A DNA stretch of 64,000 bases from Salinarchaeum sp. Harcht-Bsk1 (GTDB lineage: Archaea > Halobacteriota > Halobacteria > Halobacteriales > Salinarchaeaceae). The DNA lies in assembly GCF_000403645.1 (NCBI RefSeq), contig NC_021313.1, positions 1,693,014 through 1,757,013 on the forward strand, written 5' to 3'. The notes under the pieces are model-generated. The model was not told the origin of the DNA. It did no database searches and saw only the letters and a program-made list of their open reading frames with translations. Shown in pieces: positions 22,495 to 55,989 of the stretch (the stretch's first letter is position 1; each line of letters opens with the position of its first letter). A program made the position numbers and the translations under genes.

Positions 22495-22596
22495 GCCCGG
22501 TGGGAGGGGCGGCACGGCAAAAAGCGGCCCGGGACTCCTTCCTGGCGGCGGATCCCCGACGTTTACCCGCCAGCGCCGCGATCGTCCGGCCGAACG

Positions 22597-23229
22597 ATGG
22601 ATCGCTCGCGAGCCGCGACGCAGGCGGTGTACGACGAGATCGCCGCCCACTTCGCCGAGACGCGGCGCTACCCCTGGCCGGAGGTCACCGAGTTTCTCGA
22701 CGCCGCGCCACCCGGGGAGTTCGGTCTCGACGTCGGCTGCGGGAACGGCAGGCACCTCGCCCCGCTCGCCGATCGCGTCGAGCACACGATCGGCCTCGAT
22801 CTGAGCACCGAACTGCTCGAGATCGCGCGCGAGCGGACCAACGTGGACGCCGACCTCGTCGCCGGCGACGCCGCCACGCTCCCCGTCCGGAGCGATTCGA
22901 TCGCGGTGGCCGTCTCGATCGCGACGCTGCACCACCTCCCGACGCGGGACCTCCGAGTCCGCAGTCTCGACGAGATCGCCCGGGTCCTGACGCCCGACGG
23001 CCAGGCGCTCGTCTCGGCCTGGAGTGTCGCGGCCGACCGCTTCGACGCCGACGCGGGATTCGACGCCGAGATCCCGTGGGAACTCCCCGACGGAGAAACG
23101 GTCGATCGATACTACCACGTCTACGATCCCGACGAGTTCGAGGCCGACCTCGCGGCGAGCGACGTGCGAGTACTCGACGTCGAGGTGTCGAGTGGGAACT
23201 GCTACGCGACGGTCGCAAAGCCAGAGTAG
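22597..23229 (+). CDS. Trm9/ABH8-like tRNA wobble-uridine methyltransferase
   Basis: A 210-residue class I SAM methyltransferase with the AdoMet motif GLDVGCGNGRHLAPL (about 43-57). Its similarity to eukaryotic Trm9 runs beyond the SAM core. It has an N-terminal VYDEIAAHFAETRRYPWPEV, the TLHHLPTRDLRVRSLDEI segment, the GQALVSAWS stretch, RYYHVYDPDEFEADL and a final GNCYATVAKPE. Trm9 makes the methyl ester of cm5U34 and needs Trm112, and archaeal Trm112 is known. The gene diverges from ubaA with a 102-base gap. Function is inferred from family features. Confidence 0.85.
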   Translation: MDRSRAATQAVYDEIAAHFAETRRYPWPEVTEFLDAAPPGEFGLDVGCGNGRHLAPLADRVEHTIGLDLSTELLEIARERTNVDADLVAGDAATLPVRSDSIAVAVSIATLHHLPTRDLRVRSLDEIARVLTPDGQALVSAWSVAADRFDADAGFDAEIPWELPDGETVDRYYHVYDPDEFEADLAASDVRVLDVEVSSGNCYATVAKPE

Positions 23230-29550: not shown

Positions 29551-29599
29551 ATTTGGGTGTTTCAGTAGCTGGGATCGTCGCTACAGCAGCGACTGCTTC

Positions 29600-30186
29600 G
29601 GAAGCCCCCTCCCGCTCGCGGCACCTCACTCGTTGCGCGCTTCGCTCGGCCGTCGGCCTCGCTGCAGTGCTTACTTCGTGACGAGCCGCGACCGGTCGGC
29701 CCCTCCCAATCCCACCCATTGATTATCCGCGGATCGCGAAACCCCGGTGGTCCACGTCGGCGCGCGCTGCGCATGGCTGCGAGCCCTCTCACGGGCGAGC
29801 AGCCAATCGCCGACGCCGTGCGAGGGCCGACCGAGCGAAGTCCTCGCAAGCGGCAGCGAGCGAGGGCTCGGAAGTCGCAGCCTGCGAGCGAAGCGAGCCG
29901 GAACGTCTTCCGGCGCGAGGGAGAAGGCTGGGGAGGAATGAGGCTGGTTTGGGTGGTCATCGAAAGGGGCCGGGCGGTCGGTCGTTCCCGGGCGAAGGTG
30001 AGCCGAGCAGCGCGAGGCGAACGTCGAAAGGTGAGCGAAGCGAATCTTTCGGAACAAGCACTGGAGCGAAGGAGCGAAAGCGACTGAGCGAAGCGCGCAG
30101 CGAGCCGCAGCCCTCGAGCACCGGGAGAGCGGAGCTCTCCCGAGCACGCGGGAGCTTCGCGCCCGCGAACGATCGGGGGCTTTCGG
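29600..30186 (+). repeat. Dispersed hairpin-ended repeat, copy A
   Basis: This full copy of about 587 bp fills most of the gap between the convergent COG2433 and small membrane-protein genes. The left end CGGAAGCCCCC and right end GGGGGCTTTCGG are inverted. The left hairpin has arms at about 29613-29630 and 29679-29696 (15 of 18 positions pair) around a loop containing TCGTTGCGCGCTTC and CTGCAGTGCTTACTTC. A central palindrome-like GCCGGAACGTCTTCCGGC is shared with copy B. The right unit is the longest of the three. No frame inside shows haloarchaeal codon bias. Confidence 0.8.
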
Positions 30187-33080: not shown

Positions 33081-33566
33081 ATGCCACGGATCGCGATTCT
33101 CTCAGACACGCACATTCCTTCGCGCAGGGCCGCGCTGCCCGGATTCGTTCGGGAGGAACTGGCGGCCGCGGACTTCGCGATTCACGCCGGCGACTTCGAC
33201 AGCCGGGAGGCCCTCGAGACGATCCGGGACCTCGCCGGCGACCTCACCGCCGTCTCGGGCAACATGGATCGCGGGATGGACCTCCCGCGGGTCGCGACGC
33301 GGACCGCCGGCGGCGTGACGTTCGTCGTCACTCACGGCACCGGCTCGCGCCACGACTACGAGGAGCGCGTCGCCGGGATCGTCAGGGAGCACGATCCGAA
33401 CGCCGTCGGGATCTCCGGGCACAGCCACGAGGTGCTCGATACGGAGGTCGCGGGCGTGCGGCTGCTGAATCCGGGGAGTGCGACGGGGGCGTCGACGGAT
33501 CGTACGACGATGTACCGGGCGGAGGTGCTCGACGGCGAGATCGACCTGGAACTGTTGGAGGGGTAA
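33081..33566 (+). CDS. YfcE/MJ0936-type metallophosphoesterase
   Basis: A 161-residue calcineurin-like phosphoesterase. The metal ligands are visible in order: ILSDTHIPSR (Asp, His), HAGDFDS (Asp), SGNMDR (Asn), VTHGTG (His) and GHSHE (His). Members hydrolyse phosphodiesters in vitro; the physiological substrate is unknown. The ATG at 33081 starts MPRIAILSDTH; the longer upstream frame lies opposite the Nudix promoter region. It converges on radA across a repeat scar. Confidence 0.9.
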   Translation: MPRIAILSDTHIPSRRAALPGFVREELAAADFAIHAGDFDSREALETIRDLAGDLTAVSGNMDRGMDLPRVATRTAGGVTFVVTHGTGSRHDYEERVAGIVREHDPNAVGISGHSHEVLDTEVAGVRLLNPGSATGASTDRTTMYRAEVLDGEIDLELLEG

Positions 33567-33901
33567 TTGAGAAGTCCCGGAGAATCGCGCTGGAGTCGGT
33601 ACCTCCACTGCACCAAACCGCTTGGGGCCCCGCTCGGCCCCTTCCAGTCCTATCCGGTGGGGTTGGCGATGCCATCGCGTGCAGTTGTTGAACGTCCGCG
33701 AGCGATCGGAGGGAGCGAGCGGTTTGGTTCGAGAGAGCGAAGCTCTCTCGTCATCACGAAAGGCGCGAAGCGCCTTTCGAACGACACCGAGAGCGAGGGC
33801 GAAGCCCGAGCTGTCGGCCTTTTTTCGTGGAGATTTTTTGGAGGAGGGTTCCCGCAGCGAGCGTCAGCGAGCGAGGAAACTCTCCTCGAAAAACGGTCCG
33901 C
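33567..33901. other. Intergenic region between convergent genes holding repeat scar E
   Basis: The phosphoesterase and radA converge here. The first 105 bases include a short relic of the dispersed repeat (about 33612-33670: AAACCGCTTGG fused directly to CTCGGCCCCTTCCAGTCC, with the hairpin missing). The rest is rich in GAGCGA-type words and has T-rich stretches near 33825-33845 and GTTTTTCGAGGAG on the minus strand at about 33882-33894, the likely radA terminator. Confidence 0.5.
33612..33670 (+). repeat. Dispersed repeat, scar E (hairpin deleted)
   Basis: AAACCGCTTGG matches the sequence just outside the left end of copies B and D. GGCCCCTTCCAGTCC matches the inner edge of the left hairpin unit. 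The intervening hairpin of about 100 bases is gone, leaving GGCCCCGCT. This looks like a precise internal deletion of one palindromic unit. Confidence 0.5.
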
Positions 33902-39461: not shown

Positions 39462-39837
39462 GGTGGCTCCTCGGCGCCCGAGCGTCTTGGGCGTTCGGTC
39501 CTCACGCGAATGAGGCGTGGCCTGGGAGTTGCCGATAGCGAACCGCTTGGAAGCCCCCTCCCGCTCGTGCCCGCTCACTCGTTGTGCTCCTCGGCTACGC
39601 TCACTGCGTTCGCTCCGCCTGCGGTGCTTACTTCGTGAGCGAACACGAGCGGTCGGCCCCTTCCATTCCCACCCGATCGTGCATGGTCGACGCTCGCGAC
39701 ACCCCGGTGGACGGACCGGCCGAGCGCGGCGGCGCCGGTGGGTTTCGCTCGCGTTGGGCGGTCGGAGGGGATCACTTTCGCCGCGGGGGACGCGAACTCT
39801 TTACCGCTCGGCGTCCGAACGCCTGCCAGATACCACC
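39462..39837. other. Divergent intergenic region holding half repeat D
   Basis: This 376-base gap lies between UPF0179 and the helicase. Its centre is a half copy of the dispersed repeat (39549-39730). Downstream of the repeat, ACTCTTTACC at about 39797-39806 is a possible promoter element for the helicase. An overlapping long open frame continuing into the helicase has no coding character. Confidence 0.45.
39549..39730 (+). repeat. Dispersed hairpin-ended repeat, half copy D
   Basis: The left unit is complete: GGAAGCCCCC, then an 18-base arm at about 39561-39578 pairing 16 of 18 positions with about 39635-39652, then GGTCGGCCCCTTCC. The loop retains TCGTTG and GGTGCTTACTTC. A piece of the central region (ACACCCCGGTGGACGG) follows, but the right hairpin unit is absent. 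Confidence 0.7.
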
Positions 39838-42144: not shown

Positions 42145-42617
42145 TGGAAGCCCCCTCCCGCTGACGGCTTCTAACTCGTTGCGCGCTTCACTCGCTCCCG
42201 TCGGTCGCTCGCTGCAGTGCTTACTTCGTTACAAGCCGCCAGCGGTCGGCCCCTTCCAGTCCCCCCGATGGCATTTGCTCAGCATCGCGATACCTCGGTG
42301 GACCTCCTCGGCGCGCGCTGGCGCCGGCTGCGAGCCCCGAAGCGGGTGAGCAGCCGGTCGCGGGACACCGTGCGAGGGCCGACCGAGCGAAGTCCTCGCG
42401 AGCGGCAGCGAGCGAGGGCTCGGAAGTCGCAGCCCGCGAGCGAAGCGAGCCGGAACGTCTTCCGGCGCGAGGGAGAAGGTTGGGGAGGAGTGAGGCAGTT
42501 TTGGTGGACATCGAAAGGGGCCGGGCGCTGAGCGATTGTAACGACGCAAGCACCGCAGCGACCGAGGGAGCGAGGAGCGCAGCGAGTTAGAATCGCTCAG
42601 CGGTCGGGGGCTTTCGG
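42145..42617 (+). repeat. Dispersed hairpin-ended repeat, copy B
   Basis: A full copy of about 473 bp between the convergent helicase and 2H phosphoesterase genes. The left arm at about 42158-42175 pairs 16 of 18 positions with about 42230-42247. The right unit contains GCTGAGCGATT and, near its end, AATCGCTCAGC, a perfect 11-bp inverted pair. The outer ends are GGAAGCCCCC and GGGGGCTTTCGG. The central part is nearly identical to copy A for more than 100 bases, including GCCGGAACGTCTTCCGGC. Confidence 0.8.
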
Positions 42618-55556: not shown

Positions 55557-55989
55557 CGGAAGCCCCCGACCGCTCGCGTGGCCTGACTCGTTGCGCGCTT
55601 CGACTCGTTCGCTACGCTCACTCGTCTGCAGTGCTTTCGTCGTCAGGCCACGCGAGCGGTCGGCCCCTTCCAGTCCCACCCGGTGACGTTTGCCCAGTTT
55701 CACAATACTCCGGTGGCCATCACCGGCGCGCGCTGTGTGACGGCCGCGAGCCCCGAAGCGGGCGAGCGGCCGATCGCCGAAACCGTGCGAGGGATGAGCA
55801 GCGCAGTGGTGACCGAAGGGAACCCGAGCAGCGCAAGAGGCTGGGGAGGATCGAGGTGCGGTGGGCGGGACTTCGAAAGGGGCCGATCGCTCGACGGTGC
55901 GAGGCGAAGCAAGCACCGCAGGGAGGGAGCGAAGCGACTGACTGAGGAGCACAGCGAGCCGCAGCCCTCGAGCGGTCGGGGGCTTTCGG
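55557..55989 (+). repeat. Dispersed hairpin-ended repeat, copy C
   Basis: A full copy of about 433 bp between convergent argF and ftsY. It has the best structure. The outer ends CGGAAGCCCCCGACCGCTCG (55557-55576) and CGAGCGGTCGGGGGCTTTCG (55969-55988) are near-perfect inverted repeats. In the left unit, 55566-55587 and 55642-55663 are perfectly complementary over 22 bases around a 54-base loop. The right unit holds a further small hairpin CGGTGC...GCACCG. The central part is shorter and diverged relative to A and B. Confidence 0.85.

Follow-up and report, generated by a model that had tools for sequence, protein, structure and literature searches.

The stretch of DNA analysed here, which we call the window, comprises 64,000 nucleotides of the chromosome of Salinarchaeum sp. 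HArcht-Bsk1 (3,255,260 bp; PMC3715672). Between two convergent genes, which by inspection of their sequence we read as ornithine carbamoyltransferase and ftsY, it carries a pair of inverted hairpin units, L and R. A preliminary description had recognized this repeat as copy C and three relatives in the same window as copies A, B and D. The features of copy C and of the other copies are the following.

55557–55683, minus strand (G-rich, the presumed folding strand): unit L of copy C, with helix P1 formed by 55558–55562 and 55667–55671
55563–55565, 55664–55666, 55675–55677 and 55679–55681: G-tracts of this unit L (CCC on the plus strand)
55566–55663: P2 hairpin of this unit L
55566–55587, no strand: left arm of P2 (hypervariable stem), the perfect complement of 55642–55663
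55642–55663, no strand: right arm of P2 (hypervariable stem)
55684–55860, no strand: spacer between L and R, with hairpins of its own and a conserved segment, CTGGGGAGG, adjoining R
55861–55988, plus strand (the G-rich strand is plus), inverted relative to L: unit R of copy C, an nhmmer match at 1748874–1749001 of genome G000
29599–29719, minus strand: unit L of the 29.6 kb copy (copy A)
29949–30134, plus strand: unit R of the 29.6 kb copy, its loop enlarged by inserted hairpins
33612–33656, minus strand: decayed relic that has lost most of P2; its complement is GGATAGGACTGGAAGGGGCCGAGCGGGGCCCCAAGCGG
39548–39676, minus strand: solo unit L (copy D), with the same site occupied in S. laminariae
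42145–42269, minus strand: unit L of the 42.1 kb copy (copy B)
42500–42616, plus strand: unit R of the 42.1 kb copy

These copies belong to a larger family. Genome searches, together with iterated nhmmer runs over fetched stretches, gave 77 matches that correspond to roughly 75 units at about 50 places, and because they stem from these searches and stretches the copy numbers for Salinarchaeum are lower bounds. Units in this genome are about 102–118 nt long and are either solitary or arranged back to back in inverted pairs, as L, a variable spacer and R reversed. They are intergenic, with typical distances of around 100 bp to start codons and 50 bp to stop codons (approximate gene calls), and divergent, convergent and tandem regions hold them alike, with no clear link in these approximate calls between gene orientation and the solo or paired form. 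The position of copy C between convergent genes, and of some other units about 50 bp past stop codons, would suit bidirectional transcription terminators or 3′-UTR stabilisers, a reading to which we give hardly any credence: in the units read, no T-tract follows the hairpin as it would in intrinsic terminators at gene 3′ ends, and 28 of 132 solo units lie, by approximate gene calls, between divergently oriented neighbours, which have no 3′ end.

The arms of the repeat vary in sequence and still pair. Those of copy C are complementary at every one of their 22 bases, and the 18-position inner arms of copies A, B and D, read off the sequences, pair at 15, 16 and 16 positions, respectively, just as the preliminary description had reported. 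It had proposed either selection for structure or that one arm serves as the template for the other. We aligned 26 genomic units with 13-base variable arms (alignment A2) and used shuffled sequences and slid pairing partners as controls. Paired cells made up 87.7% of the alignment, against 73.3% after shuffling and no more than 42% once the partners were slid; both sides had changed in 18 of 32 pairs and in 111 cells, compared to 34 (s.d. 5) in shuffled and at most 19 in slid alignments. The covariation score of 0.330 (0.085 when shuffled) was reached in none of 500 shuffles, which puts the pairing far beyond chance. In the arms themselves, 23 of the 24 listed units with 13-base arms on both sides have distinct 5′ arms. 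The loops, which had been thought constant, covary too: copy D has TCGTTGTGCTCCTC where copy C has GTGCTTTCGTC, and across the 26 units GCTTC goes with GCAG and CTCCTC with GCGG, the loop pair 43–77 being CG in 13 units, TA in 12 and AT in one.

The nearest named relative, S. laminariae R26, allowed the same comparison at orthologous sites. There, the element is found at the matching site, oriented the same way, and its L stem is wholly different in sequence yet paired; among 136 positions paired in both species, both partners have been replaced at 31. Dead copies would lose their pairing; the orthologous units compared are kept up at each site. The alternative is mechanical upkeep, in which arm-templated repair (quasipalindrome correction or cruciform conversion) keeps the arms complementary and the structure itself is unselected. 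In its favour, arms change blockwise and those of copy C form a flawless inverted repeat of 22 bp. Copying alone would erase mismatches, whereas specific ones persist in most copies (T.C/C.T in 19–20 and C.C in 18 of the 26 units, plus a CCC/CCC internal loop); mismatches are strand-asymmetric, and the outer stem and the loop covary as well. Mechanical upkeep is thus highly unlikely as the whole explanation. Arm copying may contribute but is insufficient by itself, and genome-wide covariation together with the compensated replacements at orthologous sites supports the other proposal, that selection on structure maintains the pairing site by site. Pairing of L with R across the whole element was rejected as the selected structure because the variable arms of L and R of one element differ and each pairs internally.

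The mismatches also indicate which strand folds. On the strand read in the preliminary description, the variable arm in A2 has 240 Watson–Crick cells, no G.T, 15 A.C and 31 other mismatches; an A.C on that strand is a G.U on its complement. An independent count over both Salinarchaeum genomes gave 70 G.U against 21 A.C on the G-rich strand, and in genomes outside Salinarchaeum the asymmetry was not significant (67 against 57). On the complement, the conserved T.C/C.T mismatches are tandem G.A, C.C is G.G and CCC/CCC is GGG/GGG. A cruciform would favour neither strand, and we rejected a cruciform or double-stranded DNA structure as the selected form since the mismatches are strand-asymmetric and the conserved ones give G.A, G.G and G.U on one strand only. 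The folding strand is probably the G-rich complement, a point missed at first, and a selected single-strand structure on this strand is, in our judgement, likely.

Such a structure could be that of a non-coding RNA, with the G-rich strand transcribed, loops and hairpins acting as RNA motifs and stems covarying through selection on the RNA fold. Stems that covary, internal and apical motifs that are conserved in two lineages, rich inner loops and the excess of G.U over A.C on one strand in Salinarchaeum would all suit a transcribed RNA. Solo units in tandem gene settings are mildly sense-biased (54 sense, 29 antisense), which hints weakly at a connection with transcription. We nevertheless consider this reading doubtful. 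No unit set has a TATA-like peak upstream, whereas such a peak does precede gene starts in this DNA, which led us to discard a stand-alone RNA gene; a search of Rfam returned nothing above gathering score and only weak matches to unrelated families, far below thresholds, which likewise discards a known RNA family. Units occur in divergent as well as convergent regions, and those some 100 bp ahead of start codons would lie outside leaderless transcripts. A DNA level of action is slightly favoured over an RNA one.

The hairpin sits inside a conserved frame of G-tracts, a context the preliminary description had not recognized, with relatives across the order. On the G-rich strand the frame reads GGG-T-GGG-ACT-GRAAG-GGG-(variable hairpin)-GGG-CTTYC, and units of other genera have 5′-GGGTGGGACTGRAAGGGGC-hairpin-GGGGGCTTYC-3′ in common on the complement. 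Two of the four G-tracts lie in GGGTGGG and two are opposed in an internal loop between P1 (GRAAG/CTTYC) and P2. The exact 19-mer GGGTGGGACTSAAAGGGGC occurs 600 times in 63 of 146 Halobacteriales genomes, in which the reversed pattern used as a control does not occur at all. The element as a whole is spread patchily over families, from none to about 90 copies per genome. Of the exact frame we counted 38 copies in Haloarcula rara, 31 in Halorubrum aquaticum and 14 each in Natronococcus sp. A-GB1 and Halorarius litoreus, and none in Haloferax larsenii, Haloferax mucosum or Halococcus morrhuae. Copy sets from four genomes share the one frame around hairpins that are very unlike in length and inner design. 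On this same frame, an alternative inner domain, GTCGTCTCAGCGACCCCTATC...GATATGTCGCTGAGCGACCG, has stems of its own that covary (loci L367–L386, genome G073).

Tract length varies in a concerted manner. In a second, two-tier form each tract is one G shorter, GGYGGACTGAAAGGGC...GAGGGCTTTC, and both forms coexist in many genomes. Over the 146 genomes, upstream and internal tracts are of lengths 3/3 in 600 cases, 2/2 in 203, 3/2 in 10 and 2/3 in 18, so that 28 are mixed; as the three-tier and two-tier forms may be two old subfamilies, this two-by-two table overstates independence and its p-value is not to be taken at face value. Conservation in Salinarchaeum is 91, 85, 100, 97, 95 and 85% for the six Gs that make up the two 5′ tracts, compared to 73% for the intervening T; some copies miss one G of a 5′ tract, which speaks against the quadruplex proposed below. 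The two-tier subfamily with GGYGGACTGAAAGGGC is found in genomes G129 and G057 and at 12 sites of G000; one genome has 89 copies of it, and some of its members are very short and may be products of deletion. One copy, L201, has no hairpin and keeps all four tracts (GGGTGGGACTGAAAGGGGCGAGGGCTTTC).

These features suggest a quadruplex–duplex hybrid. Once single-stranded, the G-rich strand of each unit is predicted to bring the tracts of GGGTGGG and the two opposed internal-loop tracts (GRAAG-GGG ... GGG-CTTYC) into a G-quadruplex of two or three tiers that helix P1 would clamp, with the long hypervariable P2 hairpin as its last loop. The letters of P2 would then be free as long as its fold-back brought the tracts together, which would explain arms that are variable yet complementary, and covariation in tract length is what such a hybrid would require. 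Quadruplexes with a built-in hairpin form a recognised structural class (PMC4477648), and, like its members, the units have four G-tracts with a duplex stem-loop inside one loop, a likeness at the level of sequence. Whereas that work catalogues motifs of the human genome, here the motif forms a repeated family, and its copies covary in tract length and in stem. ViennaRNA prefers the quadruplex for L201 (−8.4 versus −4.1 kcal/mol) and did not choose it for the other short forms tested, and the program cannot model a quadruplex with a long hairpin loop. We judge the chances of a quadruplex–duplex core on the G-rich strand to be about even.

The intracellular setting would favour such a core. Haloarchaeal cells, Haloferax volcanii among them, contain about 2.5 M K+, and the G-quadruplexes tested at such salt were very stable (PMC12678505). 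Work on archaeal G-quadruplexes (PMC7565180, PMC12873603, PMC12678505) likewise describes haloarchaeal genomes as rich in sequences prone to form them and intracellular K+ as very high, and keyword searches of PMC7565180 and PMC12873603 found no repeated hairpin-bearing family. The element would most likely act at the DNA level, on a strand that supercoiling, transcription or replication exposes, and any cellular role might be to provide a local structure, or a site recognised by a protein, next to short direct repeats. The full proposal is that haloarchaeal chromosomes carry, in up to about 90 copies, a natural, selected quadruplex–duplex hybrid in which P2 is only a quadruplex loop, the number of tiers changes in concert in all tracts and K+ at multi-molar concentration renders the hybrid stable, as a structure of the chromosome or a site where proteins dock; we rate it a little short of an even chance.

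The short direct repeats are about 27 bp long and, in some copies, lie directly 5′ of the G-rich strand, with 2.8 copies in L012 (L012:1418–1498). They form tandem arrays of two to five (L012:1418–1498; L370; L374), CCGGTGAACCAATCCACCG-type units are in tandem in G073, and they look like candidate protein-binding repeats. Paired units in Haloarcula rara are only about 24–26 bp apart. A second repeated module, two adjacent short hairpins with stems that vary but stay paired, was seen in the loops of many units across genera. Examples are CGAGAGAGC-loop-GCTCTCTCG, TCATCA/TGATGA and CGAAAGGCGC-loop-GCGCCTTTCG, at 33725–33787 of the window and in the loops of L033:1405–1590, L117:12434–12616, L136:15209–15379 and L346.

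Among described elements, the closest are the REPs, BIMEs and REPINs of bacteria (PMC3116915), which are likewise extragenic, many-copy palindromic hairpins that occur as singlets and inverted doublets with compensatory changes, as do the roughly 75 intergenic units found here. They differ in that our units are about 115 nt long, have a G-tract frame and a hypervariable stem and reside in an archaeal host; where REPs are palindromes of 20–40 nt with a GTAG or CGTC tag, these units, at about 102–118 nt, lack either tag and are flanked by GGGTGGGACTGRAAGGGGC. The cognate RAYT transposase (Y1, PF01797) has no representative in either Salinarchaeum genome (G000 and G001), so the defining REPIN partner is missing, and none was found in G033, a genome with 57 exact frame copies. 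MITEs resemble the family in their inverted terminal units and their non-coding, intergenic nature; we saw no target duplication, empty site or parent transposase here, and at the single site examined in detail homology does not run cleanly up to the edges. Integron attC sites, considered for their variable stem, were discarded because the near-loop CTAAC/GTTA bases vary between copies. So was a viral origin, as copy C has no match in phage records; the three-tier frame occurs in no viral contig and the two-tier frame in four, and related stretches occur on some haloarchaeal plasmids. Neither literature nor Rfam searches found a description of this hairpin family or a described element that would explain it. 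The element behaves as a REP/REPIN-type repeat would but lacks the transposase in the genomes searched, and its frame is shared by no described family that we found.

A non-autonomous mobile element of MITE or REPIN type, the inverted units being ends read by a transposase and selected to fold as single-stranded DNA, would account for the inverted doublets with their variable spacer, the patchy spread from none to about 90 copies and the compensatory changes, which are also known from REPINs (PMC3116915). We regard it as unlikely: no Y1/IS200–RAYT protein is encoded in the two Salinarchaeum genomes, which also removes IS200/RAYT mobility, neither a precise empty site nor a target duplication was found and units found at one site in both species have been preserved instead of decaying. 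It can be compatible with the quadruplex reading. The best explanation for the hairpin repeat is a dispersed, REP-like intergenic family that is mainly kept vertically.

Some copies coincide with rearrangements between the two Salinarchaeum species. In S. laminariae, the units at L179, L185 and L189 have flanking sequences that adjoin two different units in HArcht-Bsk1, and the two sides of the 29.6 kb element (29599–30134) are joined to the flanks of other elements (L179, L189), which places copies at several synteny breakpoints. The species also differ by an inversion of about 11 kb (window 22535–22597 and 33565–33815; L300, L302). Both of its breakpoints carry units in S. laminariae, whereas HArcht-Bsk1 lacks a unit at one breakpoint and has a relic at the second. 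Recombination between copies would explain these rearrangements most simply.

The family described here is a long hairpin whose letters are free and whose shape is kept, in dozens of scattered copies, in salt-loving archaea, with signs, read from its sequence, of a four-stranded G-rich core on one strand. The units mark rearrangement sites between related genomes. If our reading is true, in this repeat family structure, not sequence, would be inherited at fixed chromosomal sites, quadruplex formation in the cell could be argued from covariation instead of motif counting, and the high-K+ haloarchaea would provide a direct test bed for in vivo selection of G-quadruplexes.
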